Assembly: GCF_009741275.1 (NCBI RefSeq)
Contig: NZ_WOWS01000005.1
Location: 62,001-126,000, forward strand
Direction of reading: 5' to 3'
Source of the DNA: Winogradskyella endarachnes
GTDB lineage: Bacteria > Bacteroidota > Bacteroidia > Flavobacteriales > Flavobacteriaceae
DNA length: 64,000 nt
Below, one piece after another: positions 4,799 through 19,061 of this stretch. The notes below the pieces were generated by a model, which had not been told where the DNA came from, did not search any database, and saw only the letters and a list, made by a program, of their open reading frames with translations. Both the position numbers and the translations under genes were made by a program. How positions within the stretch are numbered: the first letter of the stretch is position 1; each line of letters starts with the position of its first letter.

Positions 4799-5095
4799 TT
4801 ATACGTATTCTTGCACTATTTCAATTAACGTATTAGCATCTTTTTCTCCGCTATGACGCCATTTCATTTCACCATTTTTGTAGATTATTAAGGTAGGCAA
4901 ACCTTTTATACGCAATGCTTCTGCGAGTTCTCTATTTTTATCAACATCAATTTTAATCACCTTAACTTTGTCTCCTAAACCAGCTGCAACATCTCTTAAG
5001 ATATCGTGCATCGCAATAGAAGCATCGTTTAGTTCCGTATAAAAATCTAAAAGCACCGGAATTTCAACATCTATTAATTCACCAAATTTTGACAT
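4799..5095 (-). CDS. Thioredoxin-fold protein without the CXXC active site
   Basis: This 98-residue protein has the length and order of a classical thioredoxin: the LLDFYT strand, the VIKIDVDKN strand and helix, the cis-proline segment GLPTLIIYKNG, and a final helix. The active-site WCGPC is replaced by L22-N23-D24-A25-S26, so both redox cysteines and the tryptophan are missing. It cannot do dithiol-disulfide exchange. Such CXXC-less thioredoxin-like proteins occur in Flavobacteriaceae and may act as binding or chaperone-like proteins (inference). It is convergent with the deacetylase gene and separated from its neighbour by 165 bases that hold no other gene. Confidence 0.85.
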   Translation of the reverse strand: MSKFGELIDVEIPVLLDFYTELNDASIAMHDILRDVAAGLGDKVKVIKIDVDKNRELAEALRIKGLPTLIIYKNGEMKWRHSGEKDANTLIEIVQEYV

Positions 5096-5260
5096 ATATT
5101 TTTTAGTTTTGGTCTCAAATTGAAGTACTCTAATTTTTAATTTTAGTACATTTAGTCGTTACTGCATAAAGAGCACTTATAATATAAAAATAAGCATTTC
5201 TTAGCAATTATACCAATTTGAAGCTGTATTGTTCTATTCTAAAATTAAACTAAAAGTACT

Positions 5261-6490
5261 TTAAACTGATTTAGACCCTTTTTTAAGCTCTATTACCGTA
5301 ACCTCTGGCCAAATACCAACACGACCAGGATAACCCAAGTAGCCAAACCCTCTGTTGACATTAATATACTGACCAAGTTCTGTATAAATACCTGCCCAAT
5401 GTTTATAGCGCCATTTAGACGGACTCCATTTTATCCAACCTGGTATTTCTATACCAAATTGCATACCATGTGTATGTCCACTTAAAGTTAAATGGTAATG
5501 ATATGGGTCATTTATCACTTTTTCTTCCCAATGACTTGGATCATGAGACATTAAAATTTTAAAATCATCTGCATTAATATTTTCGGAAGCTTTCGTTAAA
5601 TCTCCAACCTTTATAAATCCACCTTTTCCCCAATTTTCAACACCAATTAAAGCTATGCGTTGCTTATCTTTTTCAAGAAATCGACTTTCATTAAGTAGTA
5701 AATCGAAACCCATATCTTTCTGTATTTGCTTTAAATCTTCAAGATTTTGATGTTTTTCTTCAGGGGAATTCCAATCTACATAATCACCATAATCATGATT
5801 ACCTAAGACTGAAAATTTTCCGTCTTTTGCCTTCAACCTTCCAAAAGTGTCTTTCCATGGTAACATTTCTGAAGCTTTGTTATTTACCATATCTCCTGTA
5901 AATAAAAGTACATCAGATTGTTGTTTATTTATTAAATCTATAGCATATTCTATCTTTTCCTTATTATCAAAACTACCAGAATGGATATCACTAATTTGTG
6001 TAATTCTATACCCATCAAAAGCCTCTGGTAAGTCTTCAAAATGTAACGTATAATTGAGTACTCTAAAATTATATTTACCTCGATACATGCCATATAACAA
6101 AGAAGAAAAAGGGATTGCAGCAAGGCCTAAAGCTATTTGACTCACAAATTTTCTTCGAGATGGTATATAAAACCCATCACTTTTTGTGGTTACTTTTTCG
6201 TATAAGCCAATTAAACCTCTAATAATATCTTCACCAAACAAAAAAGGTATTAACACTAAGTTAAATGCCATAAATGACAGCAATAAACCAAAGGCGTAAC
6301 TTTTATGAACAGTTAACACACGTCCTTCATTCCCTAAAGCAAATTGTATAATAAAATTACCAACAACAATTAATGCAATTGCAATAAATAAATAGTAAAT
6401 CCATGTTTGTTTAGTTACGGTTCTTATAGCTTGAAAACCATAAAGAGTGAGTATTATAAAACTTATTACAAATAGTATCCAACGAATCAT
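5261..6490 (-). CDS. Membrane-anchored metallophosphoesterase (YaeI-like)
   Basis: The protein has 409 residues. The N-terminal part holds four hydrophobic segments (about 2-20, 30-50, 65-90 and 115-135). The C-terminal 270 residues are a calcineurin-like phosphoesterase domain with the full metal signature: DIHSGS, GDMVN, GNHDYG, a later MSHDP and SGHTHGMQFG. This layout is that of the YaeI/YkuE group, some members of which act on lipid-linked phosphates such as UDP-diacylglucosamine or phosphatidylinositol derivatives. The substrate here is unknown. The gene stands alone on the minus strand, with its 3' end 165 bases from the thioredoxin-like gene. Confidence 0.88.
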   Translation of the reverse strand: MIRWILFVISFIILTLYGFQAIRTVTKQTWIYYLFIAIALIVVGNFIIQFALGNEGRVLTVHKSYAFGLLLSFMAFNLVLIPFLFGEDIIRGLIGLYEKVTTKSDGFYIPSRRKFVSQIALGLAAIPFSSLLYGMYRGKYNFRVLNYTLHFEDLPEAFDGYRITQISDIHSGSFDNKEKIEYAIDLINKQQSDVLLFTGDMVNNKASEMLPWKDTFGRLKAKDGKFSVLGNHDYGDYVDWNSPEEKHQNLEDLKQIQKDMGFDLLLNESRFLEKDKQRIALIGVENWGKGGFIKVGDLTKASENINADDFKILMSHDPSHWEEKVINDPYHYHLTLSGHTHGMQFGIEIPGWIKWSPSKWRYKHWAGIYTELGQYINVNRGFGYLGYPGRVGIWPEVTVIELKKGSKSV

Positions 6491-8682: not shown

Positions 8683-11532
8683 ATGTCAGACCAAAAACGT
8701 CTCTTTCTCGTTGATGCCTACGCACTTATTTTCCGTGGCTACTATGCTTTTATAAAAAATCCAAGAATAAACTCTAAAGGCGAAGACACCTCAGCCATTA
8801 TGGGTTTTATGAACTCGCTTTTAGATGTTATAAAACGTGAGCGACCAGACCATTTAGCCGTTTGTTTTGATAAAGGCGGTAGCGCAGACCGCGTAGAACT
8901 ATTTGAAGCCTACAAAGCCAATAGAGATGAAACGCCAGAAGGTATTAAAACTGCTGTACCTTACATTTATGAGATTCTTAAAGCCATGCACATCCCAATC
9001 ATGGTAAAAGAGGGTTTTGAAGCCGATGATGTAATAGGAACTTTGGCAAAAAAAGCCGAAAAAGAAGGTTACCAAACCTTTATGGTTACACCAGATAAGG
9101 ATTTTGCACAGCTGGTATCTGAAAACATTTTTATGTACAGACCTGTTTTTGGTGGTGGTTACGAGACTTGGGGAATACCAGAAGTTCAGAAAAAATTTGA
9201 AGTTACAGACCCTTTACAAGTCATAGACTATTTAGGCATGATGGGAGACGCTTCAGATAATATTCCTGGCTTACCAGGTGTTGGCGATAAAACAGCCAAG
9301 AAATTTTTAGCGGCTTATGGTAGTATGGAAAATCTTTTTGCCAATACGCATGAGCTAAAAGGTAAAATGAAAGAGAAAATAGAAGCCAACCAAGAACTCG
9401 GTTTACTCTCTAAAAAACTAGCCACTATTATGCTAGATGTTCCTGTAGAATTTAATGAAAAAGATTTTGAAATGTCTGAACCAGATATTCCTAAGGTTAC
9501 TGCCATTTTTCAAGAGTTAGAATTTAGACGCTTAATCGATAACTTTAATAAGACCTTTTCTGCTGAAGCTCGAGAAACAGCAACAGCAATGCAAACATCA
9601 AACAAAGCAGAAGCACCAAAAACCACACCTAAAGACATAAAATCCGCAGGCGAAGGTCAATTCTCATTGTTTGGTGGCTCAGAACCTTCTGCTACTGAAA
9701 CAGCCTCAGAACATACACGCCAAACAGCAGCAACCTATTCACACTTCTACCAAAGTGTAGCACCTGGTATGGCAACCAAATTATTTGTAAAAAACTTAAT
9801 GAATCAAACCTCTGTTTGTTTTGATACTGAAACTACAGGATTAAATCCGTTAACTGCAGAATTGGTTGGTATCGCTTTTTCTTGGGAAGTTGGCAAAGGG
9901 TTTTATATACCTTTTCCTGAAGATAAAGCCGAAGCACAAGCGCTTATTGAAGTCTTAAGACCATTCTTTGAAGATGAAAACATTCAAAAAATTGGTCAGA
10001 ATTTAAAATACGATATTAAAGTCTTAGCCAAATACAATATTAGCGTTAAAGGCAAATTATTCGATACCATGTTAGCGCATTATTTGATAAATCCAGATAT
10101 GCGACATAATATGGATATTCTAGCTGAAACGTATCTCAACTACACGCCAATTTCTATCACAGAACTCATTGGTAAAAAGGGCAAGAATCAATTGTCTATG
10201 CGAGAGATTCCCTTAGAAAAGCAAACCGAATATGCGGTTGAAGATGCAGACATCACTCTTCAGCTTAAGGAACATTTTGAAAAAGAATTAGGCGAAGCCA
10301 ACACTCAAAAATTATTTGATGAAATTGAAATTCCTCTAGTACGTGTACTTGCTGCAATGGAATTAGAAGGTATTAATCTCGATGTGCCTTTCTTAAACGC
10401 ATTGGCCGACGATTTAAATAAAGATATTGAAACCTTAGTCACTAAAATTTATGATGTGGCTGGCGAAGAATTTAATATTGCGTCGCCAAAACAATTAGGT
10501 ATCATTTTATTTGAAAAACTAAAACTGGTAGATAAGCCTAAAAAGACTAAAACCGGACAATATAAAACTGGCGAAGATATCTTATCGGCTTTAGCCAAAG
10601 AGCATGAGATTGTTAGAGACATTTTAGAATATCGTGGACTTGCCAAACTAAAAAGTACGTATGTAGATGCCTTACCATTACAAGTGGAAGAAGCTACTGG
10701 CAGAGTGCATACCGATTATATGCAAACGGTTGCAGCAACAGGTCGTTTAAGTAGTAATAATCCTAACTTACAGAATATTCCAATACGTACAGAACGTGGT
10801 CGCCAAGTGAGAAAAGCCTTTATACCAAGAAACGAAGATTATACCTTGCTCGCTGCCGATTACTCACAAATAGAATTACGAATTATTGCAGCACTTAGTG
10901 AAGAAGAAACCATGATTGAAGCTTTTAAGAATGGCGAAGATATTCACGCCTCAACCGCTTCAAAAGTATTTAATGTTCCAATTGAAGCCGTGACTAGAGA
11001 ACAGCGTAGCAATGCCAAAACCGTAAACTTTGGGATTATTTATGGTGTATCTGCCTTTGGCCTAAGCAACCAAACCGATTTATCTCGAGGCGAAGCTAAA
11101 GAACTCATTGACACGTATTACGAAACCTATCCAAAACTAAAAGCTTATATCAGTAAGCAAGTCGATTTTGCAAGAGATAATGGTTACGTCTCTACCATTT
11201 TGGGTCGTCGTCGTTATTTAAAAGATATTAATTCTCGTAATGCTTTAGTGCGAGGCGCAGCAGAACGCAATGCCGTAAATGCACCAATACAAGGAAGTGC
11301 AGCTGATATTATTAAAATTGCCATGATTAATATTTTTAATAAGCTAGACGCTGGCAATTATAAATCTAAAATGCTCTTACAAGTGCATGATGAATTGGTA
11401 TTTGACATTTATAAACCAGAACTAGAAGAATTAACCACATTGATTAAAACCGAAATGGAAAACGCCTTTAAAATGGAAGTTCCGTTAGATGTGGAGGTTG
11501 ATACTGGTTTGAATTGGTTGGAGGCGCATTAG
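8683..11532 (+). CDS. polA: DNA polymerase I
   Basis: At 949 residues this is a full-length three-domain Pol I. Residues 1 to about 295 are the 5'-3' exonuclease/flap domain (LFLVDAYALIFRGYYA, then DKDFAQLV and the GDASDNIPGLPGVGDKTA helix-hairpin-helix). A Ser/Ala/Thr-rich linker of about 60 residues follows. The 3'-5' proofreading exonuclease is intact, with D381 and E383 in FDTETTG and the YAVEDADITLQL motif. The polymerase domain has motif A at D726 (DYSQIELR), motif B in RSNAKTVNFGIIYG and motif C at D903 (VHDELVF). It fills gaps in DNA repair and removes Okazaki primers. The accessory DNA methyltransferase island begins 192 bases downstream. Confidence 0.98.
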   Translation: MSDQKRLFLVDAYALIFRGYYAFIKNPRINSKGEDTSAIMGFMNSLLDVIKRERPDHLAVCFDKGGSADRVELFEAYKANRDETPEGIKTAVPYIYEILKAMHIPIMVKEGFEADDVIGTLAKKAEKEGYQTFMVTPDKDFAQLVSENIFMYRPVFGGGYETWGIPEVQKKFEVTDPLQVIDYLGMMGDASDNIPGLPGVGDKTAKKFLAAYGSMENLFANTHELKGKMKEKIEANQELGLLSKKLATIMLDVPVEFNEKDFEMSEPDIPKVTAIFQELEFRRLIDNFNKTFSAEARETATAMQTSNKAEAPKTTPKDIKSAGEGQFSLFGGSEPSATETASEHTRQTAATYSHFYQSVAPGMATKLFVKNLMNQTSVCFDTETTGLNPLTAELVGIAFSWEVGKGFYIPFPEDKAEAQALIEVLRPFFEDENIQKIGQNLKYDIKVLAKYNISVKGKLFDTMLAHYLINPDMRHNMDILAETYLNYTPISITELIGKKGKNQLSMREIPLEKQTEYAVEDADITLQLKEHFEKELGEANTQKLFDEIEIPLVRVLAAMELEGINLDVPFLNALADDLNKDIETLVTKIYDVAGEEFNIASPKQLGIILFEKLKLVDKPKKTKTGQYKTGEDILSALAKEHEIVRDILEYRGLAKLKSTYVDALPLQVEEATGRVHTDYMQTVAATGRLSSNNPNLQNIPIRTERGRQVRKAFIPRNEDYTLLAADYSQIELRIIAALSEEETMIEAFKNGEDIHASTASKVFNVPIEAVTREQRSNAKTVNFGIIYGVSAFGLSNQTDLSRGEAKELIDTYYETYPKLKAYISKQVDFARDNGYVSTILGRRRYLKDINSRNALVRGAAERNAVNAPIQGSAADIIKIAMINIFNKLDAGNYKSKMLLQVHDELVFDIYKPELEELTTLIKTEMENAFKMEVPLDVEVDTGLNWLEAH

Positions 11533-11724: not shown

Positions 11725-12780
11725 ATGGGAAGTCTAAAAGCTGTAGATTTTTTTTGCGGAGGTGGTGGTATGAGCTATGGAATGCAAAAATCTGGAATTA
11801 AAGTTTTAGCTGGCATTGATTATGAAGAAAACTGTAGAGAGACTTACAATGCAAACATTGGTAAGGACAAATTTATAAAAGCTGATGTTTTTGAATTAGA
11901 AGAAAAAGAACTAGAGAAAACTCTTAATTTACAACGTAATGATGATAATCTTTTACTTATAGGCTGTAGTCCCTGTCAATTTTGGAGTATTATAAATACT
12001 GACAAAAACAAATCTCAAAAATCTAAAAACTTATTAGTTGAATTTGAAAGGTTTGTAAAATATTTTAACCCTGGTTATGTTGTAGTTGAAAACGTTCCTG
12101 GTGTACTTCGTAAAAAAGGCGAAAGTGGTTTAGAAGCATTTATAAATTGGCTCGAATCAAATAAATATACTGTTCATTTTAAAGTTCATAATACTGCTGA
12201 ATACGGAGTTCCTCAAAGTAGAAAAAGATTTACATTGATTGCAAATAGAATTTCTGAAGTAGAGTTATCTCCTATTAAGTCAAAGAAAAAAATTGTAGTA
12301 AAGGATGTACTTGGTGTTAAAAATGGCTTTAAAGAAATAAAAGCTGGCCACAAAGATAAAAGTAAACTTATGCATTCTTCACCTGGAATAAGTGACTTAA
12401 CTTTACGTAGATTAAAAAAAGTAAAAAAAGATGGAGGTACAAGGGAAGGTTTTGCAAACGACCCTGAATTACAATTAGACTGTTTTAAAGGTAGAGACAA
12501 CTCTTTTAAAGATACTTTCGGACGTCTTTGGTGGGACAGACCAGCACCAACAATAACAACTAAATTTTTTAGTGTCTCAAATGGACGTTTTGTTCATCCA
12601 GAAGAAAACAGAGCTTTATCTATACGTGAAGGAGCAGTTCTTCAATCTTTTCCCAAATCTTACAAGTTTTTTGGAACAAGCCACGCTGCTATAGCTAGAT
12701 TAATTGGAAACGCTGTTCCACCAGAATATGCCAAAAGAATAGGAAAAGCAATAATTAAAAATCACAAAAATGCAGTTTAG
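11725..12780 (+). CDS. DNA (cytosine-5-)-methyltransferase
   Basis: This 351-residue protein is a complete Dcm-type C5-methyltransferase. Motif I is the SAM-binding FFCGGGGMSYGM near the N-terminus. Motif IV carries the catalytic cysteine C84 in GCSPCQFWS, slightly different from the usual GPPCQ-x-FS. Motif VI is VVENVPG (E122-N123) and motif VIII is VPQSRKRF. A target-recognition region of about 120 residues follows, then motif IX (RALSIREGAVLQSFP) and motif X (IGNAVPP). The recognition sequence cannot be predicted. It is the first gene of a three-gene unit; its end overlaps the next gene by 11 bases, suggesting translational coupling. No restriction endonuclease is recognised nearby. The 192 bases upstream are very AT-rich and probably hold the promoter. 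Confidence 0.95.
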   Translation: MGSLKAVDFFCGGGGMSYGMQKSGIKVLAGIDYEENCRETYNANIGKDKFIKADVFELEEKELEKTLNLQRNDDNLLLIGCSPCQFWSIINTDKNKSQKSKNLLVEFERFVKYFNPGYVVVENVPGVLRKKGESGLEAFINWLESNKYTVHFKVHNTAEYGVPQSRKRFTLIANRISEVELSPIKSKKKIVVKDVLGVKNGFKEIKAGHKDKSKLMHSSPGISDLTLRRLKKVKKDGGTREGFANDPELQLDCFKGRDNSFKDTFGRLWWDRPAPTITTKFFSVSNGRFVHPEENRALSIREGAVLQSFPKSYKFFGTSHAAIARLIGNAVPPEYAKRIGKAIIKNHKNAV

Positions 12781-15667
12781 AACCAAAGCAAGAGCAGTAG
12801 ATTTATTGGGGAAAGGACAAATTGCAGATTTACCAACAGCTATTACGGAATTATGGAAAAATGGTTATGATGCTTATGCCGATAATCTAACTGCTGAAAT
12901 ATATTTAGACACATACAAGGATGTTAATTCTCCGTTGTTTATTATGACAGATGATGGAAAAGGAATGTCTAGAAATGATATTTTGGAAAAATGGTTAGTA
13001 CTTGGTACTGATTCTAAAAGTAGAGCTACACTTGAAGAAAAAGAAAGTGAAGAAACACTCTGGAAAAAACCAAGAATCAAAGCTGGCGAAAAAGGTATAG
13101 GTAGATTGTCTGTAGCATTTCTTGGCAACCCAATGTTGATGCTTACCAAAAAGCAGGGTCATCCTTTACAAGCCTTATTTTTTGATTGGAGATTACTAGA
13201 AAACTATAATTTATTTTTAGATGATGTAAATATACCAGTTGAAGATATTGACAGTTTTGATGATTTTCATTTTAAACTTGAAAAACTAAAAAATGATTTT
13301 CTTTTAAATTTTGATAAAGAAAATGATATTGATGGCAATTATATTTGGGAAGAAAAACAATTAGGATTAAGAAGAGATATTGAAGATTCAGTTATTAAGT
13401 CAAAAATTCCAGATTTTTTATCAAAAAAACTTCTTAATGATTTATTGGATATTGAAAATGGTCATGGAACAAAATTTATCATTTTTGAACCTTTAGATCA
13501 AATAATAGAGATAACAAAAAATGATGATGATGGATTAGATGACAGACAGTTTGTTGCATCTAGTCTTGCAGGATTTACCAACGATTTTGTAGAAAACAAT
13601 AAAATTGTTAATACAGAAATACCTGTATTTAAAGATGTTAATATTGAATATGATTTTTTAAACGTATTCGGACAATTTTTTAACTCTGAAGATTTTAATT
13701 ATGCTGATGTTGTGATTGATGGAGTTTTTAATGGACAAGGTTCTTTCAACGGGACACTAAAACTATATGATGAAGTTATAAATTATTCTTATACAAATCC
13801 CAGGAAAAAAGATAAAAGAAGTTTTTATGGTAGTTTCCCCATCAAGGTAGGAGTTTCTCAAGGTAAAGAAAGTGAGTCTAAACTTGAATCTAATGCTTGG
13901 AAAAGAATTAGTGATAAAGTTAAAGCAAACGGGGGATTATATATTTACAGAGATAATTTCAGAGTTTTACCTTATGGTAGGACAGATTTTGATTTTTTAG
14001 GTTTTGAAAAAAGGAGAGCATTAAGAGCAAGTTCTTATTTTTCACATAGAAGAATGTTTGGATATATTGAACTTTCAAGAAAAAGAAATGATAAATTAAT
14101 TGATAAATCAAGTAGGGAAGGTTTAATAAATAATTCAGCTTATAGGACTTTTAAAAATGATTTAGAATCATTTTTCAAGGAATTGGCACAAGAATATTTA
14201 GGTACAGATGCTAGAGAATCTATTTTCTTAGATAAAAAAGAAAAGATAAAAGAAGAAAGTGAAGCTATAAAAAAAGACAATAAACGAGCTACTGAAGAGA
14301 AAAAAGCATTTACAAAATCTTTAAGAGAATATCCAGAGAAATTTGAAAAATATAAAACGGAATATCAATCTATTTTAGAACAATTAGAGGAAAAGACCAA
14401 TGCCTCGGATGTGTTGTATGCTGATATTGAAAATTTATTGGACAGATTACACACATTAGATATTGAGTTTAAAACCTTAATACCTAAAGTTCCTAAAAGA
14501 TACAAACCAACAGATACTCAGTTAGACCGATTAGATAAATACGAAGATAAGTTGTTAGGTTTTAACGAAACTATAAAAAAAGATAGTGAGCAATTAATGA
14601 TTAGAGTTCAAGAAAAGCTCGAAGTCAAAGAATTGAAAGTAGAGTTTACCAAGAATTATCAAAAATACAATGGTACGCTTGAAAAAATTATTACAGAAAA
14701 TAGAATTCAATTAAAAACCCAATATGACAGTTTGTTGAAGGATTTTTCTTTTCGCTCAAGAAGAATTATTGATGAATTAAATTTTGAAAAAGATAAGATA
14801 GTGAACTCAATAGATTCTAAAGAAAGTGTGCTAATTGAATCAGAAAAATTAGCGTCAAAATTTGAATTTTTAAGAGATCAGATAAATAAAGAATTATCAC
14901 CGTTAGTTGAGCACTTAAGTAAATTAAGTTTTGATATTGATGAAGAATTAGTTCAAGGAGCCTATAAAGCCGAATACGAAACTATCAAGTACAAGTGGGA
15001 ACAGACTAGAGAAACAGCTCAATTAGGTGTTGCTGTTGAAATTATAGACCACGAGTTCAACCAATTATATGCTAAAATAAATAGTTCTATTGACAAGTTA
15101 AGTGAGGTTAACCTTTTTACAGATGTAGAACAATTCAACTTTTTGAAGCAAAATTTCAAGCAATTAGAAGATAAATATGATTTACTATCACCATTATATA
15201 GAATATCTGGAGTTGTGCCTAAGAATGTTTCTGGCTTAGATATCTCTAAATATTTATTAAAATTCTTTGATAGAAGAATTGAAGACTATAATATAAACTT
15301 CCATTCTACCGAAGAATTCAACAACTACTCTTTAACTATAAAAGAGCCAATTATTCATACGGTATTTATCAATATAATCAACAACGCAATTTATTGGATG
15401 CGAAATAAAGAGCATCGTGAAGTTTTATTAGATTATAAAAGTGACACAAATGAAATAATTATTTGTAATTCTGGGTTAAAAATTGAAAATCATCGAATTG
15501 AAAAAATATTTGAAATGTTTTATTCTAACAGACCAAACGGCAGAGGAATAGGTTTATATCTTTCTAAACAAAGTCTAAATGAAAGTAATTTAGATATATA
15601 TGCTACTAACGATAAAGAATACAATGTGCTAAATGGTGCTTGTTTTGTTATAAAACCTTTAAATTAA
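12770..15667 (+). CDS. Dual GHKL protein: N-terminal MORC/Hsp90-like ATPase plus C-terminal histidine-kinase core
   Basis: The protein has 965 residues. The N-terminal GHKL ATPase shows E27 and N31 in ITELWKNGYDAY, the DDGKGM motif (D61-D62) and the lid GEKGIGRLS (106-114), as in prokaryotic MORC/paraMORC and Hsp90-type ATPases. Residues of about 490-750 are Lys/Glu-rich and predicted coiled coil. The C-terminal 230 residues read as a histidine kinase: an H-box-like EIIDHEFNQL with H761, an N box NIINNA (868-873), a degenerate G1 (CNSG) and a G2 box GRGIGLYLSK starting at G924. The start is set by the 11-base overlap with the methyltransferase gene and by the family-typical opening. The receiver-like gene starts 2 bases after its stop codon. 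It probably senses something through the ATPase part and signals by phosphotransfer (inference). No nuclease motif was seen. Confidence 0.88.
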   Translation: MQFRTKARAVDLLGKGQIADLPTAITELWKNGYDAYADNLTAEIYLDTYKDVNSPLFIMTDDGKGMSRNDILEKWLVLGTDSKSRATLEEKESEETLWKKPRIKAGEKGIGRLSVAFLGNPMLMLTKKQGHPLQALFFDWRLLENYNLFLDDVNIPVEDIDSFDDFHFKLEKLKNDFLLNFDKENDIDGNYIWEEKQLGLRRDIEDSVIKSKIPDFLSKKLLNDLLDIENGHGTKFIIFEPLDQIIEITKNDDDGLDDRQFVASSLAGFTNDFVENNKIVNTEIPVFKDVNIEYDFLNVFGQFFNSEDFNYADVVIDGVFNGQGSFNGTLKLYDEVINYSYTNPRKKDKRSFYGSFPIKVGVSQGKESESKLESNAWKRISDKVKANGGLYIYRDNFRVLPYGRTDFDFLGFEKRRALRASSYFSHRRMFGYIELSRKRNDKLIDKSSREGLINNSAYRTFKNDLESFFKELAQEYLGTDARESIFLDKKEKIKEESEAIKKDNKRATEEKKAFTKSLREYPEKFEKYKTEYQSILEQLEEKTNASDVLYADIENLLDRLHTLDIEFKTLIPKVPKRYKPTDTQLDRLDKYEDKLLGFNETIKKDSEQLMIRVQEKLEVKELKVEFTKNYQKYNGTLEKIITENRIQLKTQYDSLLKDFSFRSRRIIDELNFEKDKIVNSIDSKESVLIESEKLASKFEFLRDQINKELSPLVEHLSKLSFDIDEELVQGAYKAEYETIKYKWEQTRETAQLGVAVEIIDHEFNQLYAKINSSIDKLSEVNLFTDVEQFNFLKQNFKQLEDKYDLLSPLYRISGVVPKNVSGLDISKYLLKFFDRRIEDYNINFHSTEEFNNYSLTIKEPIIHTVFINIINNAIYWMRNKEHREVLLDYKSDTNEIIICNSGLKIENHRIEKIFEMFYSNRPNGRGIGLYLSKQSLNESNLDIYATNDKEYNVLNGACFVIKPLN

Positions 15668-15669
15668 TT

Positions 15670-17268
15670 ATGAGTTATCAACGACAAGCCATAGGCATAA
15701 TTAAAGAATCGATAAAATCAGCAGTATTTATTGATGAAAATGCTAGAGGTTTTTTTCAAAATCAAGATGAATTAAAAGGAGAACGGGAAGAAGAAATTTC
15801 TATAGAATTATTTAATAACTTCAAAGAAAATGGGATTTCGTTAGCTATTCATCAATACAAAATTGACGACGAGAAAAATGAGAATTTAAAAAACTATTTA
15901 TTTGAAGATAGAGATTTAGTATTATTAGATTGGAATTTAGATGGAAATGATTCTGGTCAAGATATTTCGTTACAATTATTGTCCGATATTATTAAGAGAC
16001 CACATATTCATTTTTGTACTATTTATACTTCTGAATCAGGTAGTAAGATTGATAATGTTTTTATGAATATTCTGTCATATTTTTCTGGTGAAAATAAGCA
16101 GTTCTATGATGAGTTATATGAAGACTTAGAAGATGAAGAAGAAATTATTGCGCTTAAAGATGCATTAAATTATATAAATGTTAATCGAGATAGTGTTGAT
16201 TGTGGTAAAAAAATAGGAGCTTTATTTCAATCAAATAGAACTGAAATTAAAAAAATTCAGGAAATAACTAAATTGTCAAATAAAAAATGTGCCATAATAA
16301 AAGCTTCTAATGCTTTAAATCGGACTCTAGCACCAATCGAATCTCATAGTTGTCCTTCTGTAGTGAATTTTGTAAATAAAACACTGGTGATTGATAATAC
16401 AATTATTTCAATTTTAAACAAAGATGAAAATTCTCCAGCAGATTTAATTAATAATATATCAAATCAGATTATACAAGGAAAAACTAGTTTTACTCAATTA
16501 CTAGGTTTAGAAATGCAATCGATATTTTCTAAGAGCGGAGCTTTTATTGATGAAAATATACTTGATTTTGGTAAAGATGCTATAATTTTTCATAGAGAAA
16601 AATATAGAATGGATGGTCATTTACATTATTTTCCTGAATTTATTAAGGAAATAATGCTTGAAAAAGCAAAACTAAATATAAGGAATAAATCTATATCTCT
16701 TTTAGACAACATCTTTCTTGATAATCAAAATGAAGGAAAAACACCTAGTGATAAGGAACTGATAGCTATGAATGTTTTTTATAACTCCACTAAATTAAAA
16801 AATGATAACAAATTAAACTTTGGAGATGTTTTCAGAAAAAAAGACTCGAAAGACTATTTTATTTGTGTAACAGCTTTATGTGATTGTTTAAGACCAGAAA
16901 AAATAGAAAATAAATTCTTTTTTGCAAAAGGAGAGCCTATCAAAAAAGAAAATGCGCTCCAACTAGGAGATACAGCTTTTGTAAGCTATTTATCAGATAA
17001 GCAAATAGTAAAATGGACAGATGTAATTCCATCAGCCGATAACTTACATAAGTATAGTCCTGTGTACATTAAACCTTTACAATACACGATTCTTAACACG
17101 GAGTTTGAAGATAATTATATTACATTCAAAAGCATAAATTCAGTTGGAGAGATAGACACCTTTAGAGGAGAATACGTTACAACTATAAAATCTAATTACA
17201 CACAGCGAATTGCTAATCATGCTTTTAACCATCCTATTCGAGTTGGTGTCGATTTCGTCAAAAAATAG
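15670..17268 (+). CDS. Receiver-like protein with a large unknown C-terminal region
   Basis: The start chosen is the ATG at 15670 (532 residues), 2 bases after the previous stop codon. An in-frame ATG 30 bases upstream lies inside the neighbouring gene. Residues 1 to about 135 look like a divergent response-regulator receiver: an acidic D22-E23 after a first strand (SAVFIDEN), the candidate phospho-acceptor D87 in LVLLDWNLDG, and a hydrophobic strand ending in TIYTSES that fits the conserved Thr/Ser position. The expected lysine of strand 5 was not placed with confidence. The remaining 400 residues match no family I recognise; there is no HTH motif, so it is not an ordinary transcriptional regulator. 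Its position directly after a histidine-kinase-like gene supports a phosphorelay partner. The effector function is unknown. Confidence 0.75.
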   Translation: MSYQRQAIGIIKESIKSAVFIDENARGFFQNQDELKGEREEEISIELFNNFKENGISLAIHQYKIDDEKNENLKNYLFEDRDLVLLDWNLDGNDSGQDISLQLLSDIIKRPHIHFCTIYTSESGSKIDNVFMNILSYFSGENKQFYDELYEDLEDEEEIIALKDALNYINVNRDSVDCGKKIGALFQSNRTEIKKIQEITKLSNKKCAIIKASNALNRTLAPIESHSCPSVVNFVNKTLVIDNTIISILNKDENSPADLINNISNQIIQGKTSFTQLLGLEMQSIFSKSGAFIDENILDFGKDAIIFHREKYRMDGHLHYFPEFIKEIMLEKAKLNIRNKSISLLDNIFLDNQNEGKTPSDKELIAMNVFYNSTKLKNDNKLNFGDVFRKKDSKDYFICVTALCDCLRPEKIENKFFFAKGEPIKKENALQLGDTAFVSYLSDKQIVKWTDVIPSADNLHKYSPVYIKPLQYTILNTEFEDNYITFKSINSVGEIDTFRGEYVTTIKSNYTQRIANHAFNHPIRVGVDFVKK

Positions 17269-17429: not shown

Positions 17430-19061
17430 CTACAAATCCAACCCCTTCAAACTCTCTACTCTATTTCTAGCTAAGAAATCATCGATAGTTTCAAAATGTT
17501 CGATAACGCGTTTTTCTTTAAACTCAAATACTTTTTTAGAAAGACCTTGTAGAAAATCTCTATCGTGAGAGACTAATATTAATGTGCCATCAAAATTTTG
17601 TAACGCTTCTTTCAATACATCTTTAGATTTTAAATCTAAGTGATTGGTTGGCTCATCGAGAATAAGCAGATTCACAGGTTCTAGTAAAAGTTTTACCATG
17701 GCCAATCTGGTTTTTTCTCCTCCAGAAAGCACACTTACTTTTTTATCGATATCATCGCCTCTAAACATAAAACCACCCAAGATGTTCTTAATCTGAGTAC
17801 GTACATCGCCTTTTGCCACCTCATCTACGGTTTGAAAAACCGTTAAACTTTCGTCTAACAAAGCGGCTTGATTTTGTGCAAAATAACCAACCTGTACATT
17901 ATGACCCAAAGTACAAGTCCCTTCTACATCAATTTCACCTAAAATGGCTTTTATCATTGTAGATTTTCCTTCGCCATTTCTACCCACAAAACAGACCTTC
18001 TCGCCTCTTGCAATAGACATACTTGCGTCTTTAAAAACCACGTAGTCATCATAAGATTTAGAAACGTCTTTAACCGTTACAGGATAATCGCCAGAACGCT
18101 GTGTTGCTGGAAAACGCAATCGTAATGCAGACGTATCTACCTCATCTATTTCTATACGTTCTAGTTTTTCTAACATACGCTCACGAGATGACACTTGGTT
18201 GGTTTTAGAATACGTGCCTTTAAAACGCTCTATAAAAGCCATATTATCTGCAATAAATTTTTGCTGCTCGTGGTACGCTTTTATTTGGTGTGTGCGTCTA
18301 TCTTCTCGCAATTGTAAGTAATGCGAGTAATTGGCTTTATAATCGTAAATACGTCCCATAGTAACCTCAATAGTTCTGTTGGTTATATTATCTATAAAAG
18401 CTCTATCGTGAGAAATAACTAAAACCGCATTGGCTTTGTTCACTAAAAAGTCTTCTAACCAAATGACAGATTCAATATCAATATGGTTAGTTGGCTCATC
18501 TAATAGAATTAAATCTGGCTTTTGAAGTAAAATTTTAGCCAATTCTATTCGCATGCGCCATCCACCAGAAAATTCACTTGTAGGTCTTGCAAAATCGGCT
18601 TGCTTAAATCCTAGACCTTTCAATGCTTTTTCTACTTCAGCATCATAGTTAACGTCTTCTAAAGCATAATATTTTTCGCCTAAATCCGATACACGTTCTA
18701 TGATTTTCATGTATTCATCAGATTCATAATCCGTTCTGGTTTCTAGCTGTTTGTTGAGCGCTTCCATTTCATCACGCATTTCAAATACATGTGCAAACGC
18801 TTTAGATGCTTCTTCAAAAACTGTTGTATGATCTTCGGTTAATAAGTGCTGAGGTAAATAAGCAATAACGGTATCTTTTGGAGAGCGCACATGACCACGT
18901 GTAGCATTTTGTACACCAGCAATAATTTTCATCATGGTAGATTTTCCGGCACCATTTTTACCCATTAAAGCAATTTTATCATTTTCATTAATAGTGAAAG
19001 ACACATCACTAAAAAGTGTTTGTCCACTAAATTCTACGGCTAAATTATCCACTGAAATCAT
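17430..19061 (-). CDS. ABC-F family ATPase (ribosome-associated)
   Basis: This 543-residue protein has two ABC ATPase domains and no membrane segments, the ABC-F layout. Domain 1 has Walker A GKNGAGKST, signature SGGWRMRIELA and Walker B LILLDEPTNHID. Domain 2 has GRNGEGKST, LSGGEKTRLAM and LILDEPTNHLD. The roughly 80-residue linker between them is Arg/Lys- and aromatic-rich (HQIKAYHEQQKF and following), the ribosome-contacting P-site tRNA interaction motif. ABC-F proteins of this YbiT/YkpA-like branch act on stalled or initiating ribosomes; a few give antibiotic resistance, but nothing here points to that. It is convergent with the methyltransferase island, and the 161 bases between them show nothing. 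Confidence 0.93.
   Translation of the reverse strand: MISVDNLAVEFSGQTLFSDVSFTINENDKIALMGKNGAGKSTMMKIIAGVQNATRGHVRSPKDTVIAYLPQHLLTEDHTTVFEEASKAFAHVFEMRDEMEALNKQLETRTDYESDEYMKIIERVSDLGEKYYALEDVNYDAEVEKALKGLGFKQADFARPTSEFSGGWRMRIELAKILLQKPDLILLDEPTNHIDIESVIWLEDFLVNKANAVLVISHDRAFIDNITNRTIEVTMGRIYDYKANYSHYLQLREDRRTHQIKAYHEQQKFIADNMAFIERFKGTYSKTNQVSSRERMLEKLERIEIDEVDTSALRLRFPATQRSGDYPVTVKDVSKSYDDYVVFKDASMSIARGEKVCFVGRNGEGKSTMIKAILGEIDVEGTCTLGHNVQVGYFAQNQAALLDESLTVFQTVDEVAKGDVRTQIKNILGGFMFRGDDIDKKVSVLSGGEKTRLAMVKLLLEPVNLLILDEPTNHLDLKSKDVLKEALQNFDGTLILVSHDRDFLQGLSKKVFEFKEKRVIEHFETIDDFLARNRVESLKGLDL

Follow-up and report, generated by a model that had tools for sequence, protein, structure and literature searches.

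The three-gene island

The window, which is the whole 64,000-nucleotide stretch of the Winogradskyella endarachnes genome analysed here (contig NZ_WOWS01000005.1, positions 62,001 to 126,000), carries a compact island of three genes, with polA (8683-11532) before it and an ABC-F gene (17430-19061) in convergent orientation after it. The genes lie head-to-tail on the plus strand and encode a C5-cytosine DNA methyltransferase (M; 351 aa, 11725-12780), a dual-ATPase MORC-type histidine kinase (HK; 965 aa, 12770-15667) and a receiver protein (RR; 532 aa, 15670-17268). M and HK overlap by 11 bases, and a gap of 2 bases separates HK from RR, whose start we take at the ATG at 15670; the list of open reading frames begins it at a TTG at 15640. 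The GC content is 28.7% in the island, 31.6% in the window and 37.2% in polA.

M matches Pfam PF00145 (E 1.1e-55) and is, by sequence, a complete C5 methyltransferase. HK has three Pfam matches, all above the cut-offs: HATPase_c_3 (residues 23-146), HEF_HK PF19191 (751-813, E 7.7e-21) and HATPase_c PF02518 (859-961). Judged from these matches and from a structure model, HK is a MORC-type ATPase and transducer followed by a coiled coil and an intact histidine-kinase core. Its N-terminal GHKL ATPase domain spans residues 1-240 (12770-13489), the coiled-coil region, modelled as long helices, residues 481-724 (14210-14941), the HEF_HK helices with His761 (15050-15052) residues 725-812 (14942-15205), and the C-terminal kinase ATP-binding domain residues 818-963 (15221-15658). 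The sole Pfam match of RR is Response_reg_2 PF19192 (14-157, E 2.7e-26). The receiver domain (residues 1-140, 15670-16089) contains Asp87 (15928-15930), and a C-terminal output region lies at residues 376-532 (16795-17265). No nuclease, helicase or helix-turn-helix (HTH) domain is found among the Pfam matches of the three proteins, nor does Pfam identify a restriction endonuclease beside M in the island. PADLOC (PADLOC-DB 2.0.0) recognises M; against HK it gives one weak match, to ZorA3 (E 0.01) within the coiled-coil range, and against RR none. The coordinates and Pfam matches bear out an earlier note on this DNA, which had described three same-direction genes between polA and ABC-F with this overlap and gap, a cytosine-5 methyltransferase, a MORC/Hsp90-type ATPase with a histidine-kinase core and a receiver with a candidate Asp, and no recognisable nuclease, helicase or HTH.

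Linkage of the three genes

Response_reg_2 scores above the Pfam cut-off in 4 of 299 genomes of the family, 9 of 395 of the phylum and 10 of 398 of the genus of genome G444. These searches share some genomes and yield 18 distinct genomes besides the window's, G1007 being counted once with locus L007. M and HK lie beside RR in all 18, intact in 17 and with all three genes in pieces in one (G974). With linkage in 18 of 18 genomes the association is not due to chance, and the trio that the earlier note had proposed to look for in gene neighbourhoods is indeed conserved together. Matches below the cut-off were not counted as members; two such loci (L038, L054) were inspected.

Among predicted viral contigs, 17 loci match HK. 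Twelve carry a full-length HK, and all 12 also have M and RR (RR is split in L124), M being linked even where it has been relocated. In L135, L136 and L137 HK ends at the contig edge, and L138 and L139 encode shorter kinases. The RR profile confirmed no hit in the viral contigs, where the RRs were reached via HK. Five further trios come from Escherichia coli and plasmids. The plasmid trios were found solely with the HK of L123, which has no match among phages, and the window RR has no match among PLSDB plasmids or INPHARED phages. No full-length locus examined, whether from a species genome or a viral contig, has an RR or HK but no M.

The set used for comparison comprises 34 intact trios: the window's, L007, 16 from the genomes searched, 11 viral and the five from E. 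coli and plasmids. It leaves out L124 (a near copy of L123), L164 (taken as a duplicate of L007), the broken L047 and L167, and L135-L139. The order is M-HK-RR in 30 of the 34 and HK-RR-M in four, with M on the opposite strand once; HK adjoins RR in every one.

Conservation, co-divergence and predicted structure

The residues expected of a working two-component pair (kinase His, kinase ATP site and receiver Asp) are kept in 34 of 34 trios. In HK these include His761 and, in the kinase ATP site, N868, N872, G902, G924, G926 and G928; the N-terminal ATPase has nine further invariant residues (E27, N31, D34, D61, G63, G65, G106, K108 and G111). In the receiver, D22, D82 and D87 are invariant, and T120 is Thr in 28 trios and Ser in six. 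We take these residues to be those of the named kinase and receiver motifs. M has 44 invariant or near-invariant positions, among them P83-C84-Q85, E122-N123-V124 and Q164-R166-R168, which presumably have the usual motif roles. The output region of RR has an invariant C-C-D...R pattern (G385, C399, C404, D405 and R524, all 34 of 34).

RR is the most divergent of the three proteins. In eight close trios its median identity is 0.44 in the receiver, 0.28 in the middle and 0.45 in the C-terminus, compared to 0.71 in residues 1-195 of M and 0.63 in the GHKL domain of HK; a variability comparable to that of RR is seen in the coiled coil of HK (0.46) and the target-recognition region of M (0.49). Over 29 trios, divergence correlates most strongly between HK and RR (r 0.935), followed by M and HK (0.805) and M and RR (0.756), with the best of 2000 permutations at or below 0.27. 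By this measure HK and RR diverge together.

Structure models of HK and RR were made with 13-row alignments. The HK model (predicted local distance difference test, pLDDT, 73.2; predicted template-modelling score, pTM, 0.50) gives Foldseek matches to SMCHD1, MORC2, MORC3, MORC4 and Hsp90 as well as to histidine-kinase cores. The GHKL ATPase and S5-like transducer fold matches SMCHD1 at E 8.6e-11 and MORC2 at 1.8e-10, with modest whole-chain template-modelling scores. The RR model is weak (pLDDT 58.2, pTM 0.46). PF19192 is present in all 25 RRs scanned, and no other family is common to more than two of them. The earlier note had allowed for an ordinary DNA-binding output domain in the third protein; none of the 25 has a recognised one. 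A hidden nuclease or HTH in RR was also considered and set aside, with neither Pfam nor solved structures in its support; EspR matches at E ~1 were disregarded. A profile of the RR C-terminus matched three trio RRs and nothing else in 199 genomes of the family. By sequence, RR consists of an intact receiver and a conserved C-terminal region without a fold assignment.

A variable site, mobile elements and an optional nuclease

The polA-ABC-F interval varies from 2,054 to 15,359 bp in the 24 relatives, among 61 loci examined, that have both ends on the stretch. Nine of 88 interval proteins match PADLOC methyltransferase models, compared to none of 85 flank proteins. The 88 are the 95 proteins found less seven from G703, which has its own trio, and the 85 are every second of 169. 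At a threshold of 1e-10, 92 PADLOC families match inside the interval and three in the flanks, one of these being a type II nicking endonuclease. The interval is rich in methyltransferases, and a defence-like setting is supported. At the same site, G703 (L047 / L081, G703:C98) has a different trio that runs the other way; its M and HK are fragmented, and an HNH gene accompanies it. Downstream of polA, partial copies of its 3' end are found in L080 (G157:C1:3834000-3852000), L082 (G705) and G725:C55; L080 has copies of 190 bases (81%), 139 bases (86%) and 19 bases (100%). Such copies suggest repeated insertion at the polA end in these relatives. In the window a polA-end duplication was rejected as an integration mark, the one 22-base match lying far downstream and being taken as chance.

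The distribution of the trio is patchy and mobile. Phage genes lie near the trios of L123, L125, L132 and L134, other trios are on plasmids, and in E. coli SE15 the trio sits in an integrative element with mobH, an integrase, a tRNA-Leu gene and an HNH gene annotated as 'phosphorothioated DNA-binding restriction endonuclease'. In seven of 34 trios (L036, L041, L044, L140, L161, L163 and L166) RR is followed, at a distance of at most 250 bp, by an HNH gene on its own strand; in L046 and L165 the HNH gene is convergent to RR. Pfam confirmed HNH in L036, L041 and L044. Vsr or AAA/OLD-like genes lie near some other trios. The nuclease is therefore optional to the trio, and the window holds the form without Vsr or HNH. 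The absence of a visible nuclease reported in the earlier note stands for the window island by Pfam and does not extend to those relatives that carry HNH or Vsr alongside.

Target-recognition classes of M

Ten trios, a small number, have an HK more than 50% identical to that of the window and were compared region by region, with region limits of our own choosing. The target-recognition region of M (residues 196-262, 12310-12510) falls into two discrete classes of five, with identities of 0.58-0.85 within and 0.36-0.49 between classes. Pairs from the same class also resemble each other more closely over the remainder of M (p 0.03 and 0.008), but no such effect appears in any of the five regions of HK or the three of RR that were compared (p 0.48-0.97). 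In L041 and L042, for example, RR is 82% and HK 79% identical, and the target-recognition region of M 40%. A nuclease that reads the site would be expected to differ between the classes, which implies that either M gives specificity or HK and RR disregard the site. Because the classes do not track HK/RR similarity, HK and RR probably do not themselves read the site of M. If methylation is sensed at all, as it would be if its state controlled the ATPase/kinase in the way that the earlier note inferred, the comparison suggests M as the likelier reader.

Relation to known families and systems

The gene family is already known. The domains HEF_HK (PF19191) and Response_reg_2 (PF19192) stem from Bellieny-Rabelo et al. 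2021 (PMC8011034), the available text of which reports that the two genes are linked in 91.6% of 644 regions, with C5 methylases encoded upstream and with neighbours that include Vsr and, as the commonest endonuclease, HNH_2; it also proposes a tie to paraMORCs. The window shares with those elements both Pfam domains, the group 1 layout of HATPase_c_3, HEF_HK and HATPase_c, the adjacent RR and the upstream C5 methylase, and we see no essential difference from what that text describes. The earlier note had asked whether a named system covers this trio: no HK/RR system is named by PADLOC, but Pfam has a name for each of the two proteins, and the M-HK-RR linkage is reported in the available text of PMC8011034. 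No functional study of the trio was found among the papers listed in the literature searches, nor in that text; most subscription papers and bioRxiv lay outside this coverage. What is new here is the structure match, the mobility, the optional nuclease, the target-recognition test and the residues invariant across 34 trios.

The trio shares with type II restriction-modification systems a C5 methyltransferase at a variable chromosomal site, but the window island has no restriction enzyme, and HK and RR do not track the target-recognition class of M. Detocs is a three-protein histidine-kinase relay in phage defence with an effector on the receiver; compared by description alone, it shares the relay with the trio but has neither methyltransferase nor MORC-type ATPase. 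Mza systems combine a GHKL ATPase with a methyltransferase, both of which the trio also has; the Z1 and AIPR components of Mza, absent here according to the earlier note, do not occur among the Pfam matches of M, HK and RR. The MORC and paraMORC ATPases of restriction-modification neighbourhoods, as described in the accessible part of Iyer et al. 2008 (PMC2292703), likewise have an N-terminal GHKL ATPase and S5-like part near C5 methylases, whereas the window adds a histidine-kinase core and has RR in place of helicase or nuclease partners. Two precedents come from immunity, each cited from excerpts. The GHKL-Shedu nuclease VcSduA protects V. cholerae (PMC12137116); it resembles HK in having a GHKL ATPase module in a defence protein, but is a single protein with a fused nuclease and, unlike the trio, has no methyltransferase or relay. 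The second precedent is CapK, a kinase that responds to single-stranded DNA by becoming active (PMC13373217). In a DefensePredictor legend (PMC13092281), HATPase and REC domains are named for systems that are predicted and not validated, and these might include the trio.

Interpretation

We tentatively read the trio as a mobile, methylation-linked phosphorelay module, most likely in defence against phage or plasmid DNA, and give this nearly an even chance. It is favoured by the linkage of the three genes, the invariant catalytic residues, the co-divergence of HK and RR, the MORC and kinase matches of the model, the mobile setting, the methyltransferase-rich polA-ABC-F interval and the VcSduA and CapK precedents. 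The defence or self/non-self module proposed in the earlier note is to this extent partly supported, namely in its domain calls, absent nuclease and defence-like setting. The MORC-type part of HK might engage DNA, perhaps via M bound at unmethylated sites, and this engagement would trigger autophosphorylation at His761. The phosphate would then pass to Asp87 of RR, and output would run through the C-C-D...R region, acting alone in the minimal form of the window and, in certain relatives, together with an HNH nuclease. M, and not HK/RR, would determine site specificity. Beyond the conserved residues, these steps are what we infer from sequence. A more specific version, which we regard as rather unlikely, would be a restriction-like phosphorelay immunity without its own site-reading nuclease, M providing specificity, the MORC clamp and kinase converting contact with foreign DNA into a signal carried by phosphate, and the C-C-D...R region being a new effector.

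Several observations weigh against defence by a methylation-sensing relay. Neither HK nor RR has a model in PADLOC, a library of defence systems. The RR model has no Foldseek match at E <= 0.001, its top matches being mostly Rossmann-like folds, with the KdpE receiver at E 0.33. The target-recognition result fits an HK/RR that ignores methylation equally well. Lesions in E. coli give a further test: with the SE15 trio and HNH gene as the query, 254 of 5426 genomes match, 205 of them over at least 80%; M matches 205 genomes and HK 207, of which 206 over at least 80%. Internal lesions were read among the matches listed (the best 60 of 254, 20 of 205, 20 of 207 and 4 of 206). HK occurs without a matching M in two genomes (L148, L172), where a deletion beside IS1 also removed the HK start; in each, loss of M and breakage of HK come from a single deletion running through both genes. 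Among the matches listed, HK is split with M intact in L145 and L171, which share protein accessions, and in L146 and L149 (IS1), and RR is split with M intact in L147. In L170 the interrupted gene is M, and the annotation gives HK and RR as intact; barring an assembly error, this speaks against M being indispensable. A lesion bias was considered as a sign of M as antidote and dropped, with no clear support and this one counterexample. L146 and L172, both with a broken HK, carry the same C-terminal HK fragment under one protein accession.

It is improbable, in our judgement, that the trio is a cytoplasmic two-component regulator of M, of a restriction-modification system or of other genes, as the authors of the 2021 paper speculate in its available text (PMC8011034). 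The HK and RR architecture and the constant HK-RR adjacency (34 of 34) would suit such a role, but no DNA-binding output domain occurs in the RRs scanned and most trios have no adjoining restriction gene to regulate. We think it comparably improbable that the trio belongs to a restriction-modification system whose true effector is a separate nuclease, HNH or other, lost or located elsewhere in the window's genome. The HNH genes near RR, the restriction annotation in the E. coli version and the rank of HNH_2 among neighbours in the 2021 text (PMC8011034) point that way. On the other side, 27 of 34 trios have no same-strand HNH gene within 250 bp of RR; HNH_2 has no match in the window's whole genome, other nuclease families not having been searched genome-wide; HK/RR similarity does not go with the target-recognition class of M; and some copies of the HNH gene in E. 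coli are not accompanied by the trio. More doubtful still is a role outside defence, as an epigenetic or DNA-maintenance module whose MORC-type ATPase would act on methylated DNA and whose relay would report it. The action of eukaryotic MORC proteins on chromatin (from the accessible part of PMC2292703) and the Vsr genes near some trios would suit such a role; against it stands the patchy, mobile distribution (9 of 395 genomes of the phylum, 205 of 5426 in E. coli, and predicted viral contigs).

If the trio is indeed a methylation-linked defence relay, bacteria would use a MORC-type ATPase, from a family with a role in eukaryotic chromatin silencing, to couple DNA methylation to a histidine-kinase relay. 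As 205 of 5426 complete E. coli genomes, many of them related strains, carry a close version, this is a fairly common unexplained system that is easily tested.

A shorter class of dual-ATPase kinases

Eight shorter proteins of 707-796 aa (L048-L053, L138 and L139) all have HATPase_c_3 and a C-terminal HATPase_c, with one aligned invariant His before the latter. The next gene starts receiver-like, with Pfam Response_reg above the cut-off in L050 alone, and a profile of seven of these partners matches the RR receiver with P 7.9e-5 and a probability of 61%. A methyltransferase homologue lies directly upstream in L050-L053. The L053 operon directly follows polA, and at the start of the L052 contig 22 bases match the polA end. 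These proteins may form a second class of MORC-type kinase relay, and their pairing with receiver genes of other kinds might point to a wider class in which outputs are exchangeable. The RR C-terminal profile scores 19.0 bits against the L052 partner, compared to 12.1 for the best of 1800 shuffled sequences, and a marginal 13.6 bits against L139; L051 and L053 are not above the shuffles but show a similar CD...SRxG pattern by eye.

Small genes after stand-alone receivers in L050 (6678-7286, minus strand) and L138 (8897-9550, plus strand) were suspected by eye to be caspase-like (His then Cys); this was dropped, with Pfam unsupportive and their mutual match unconvincing (E 0.03). The L052 receiver protein with the 19.0-bit C-terminal match (L052:3762-4802) is followed by a gene at 4827-5591 with an HNH-like motif by eye. 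The short-class operon at L048:10970-13771 has a weak HNH match and an Eco57I-type methyltransferase, and that of L049 includes a TPR/nSTAND-like gene.
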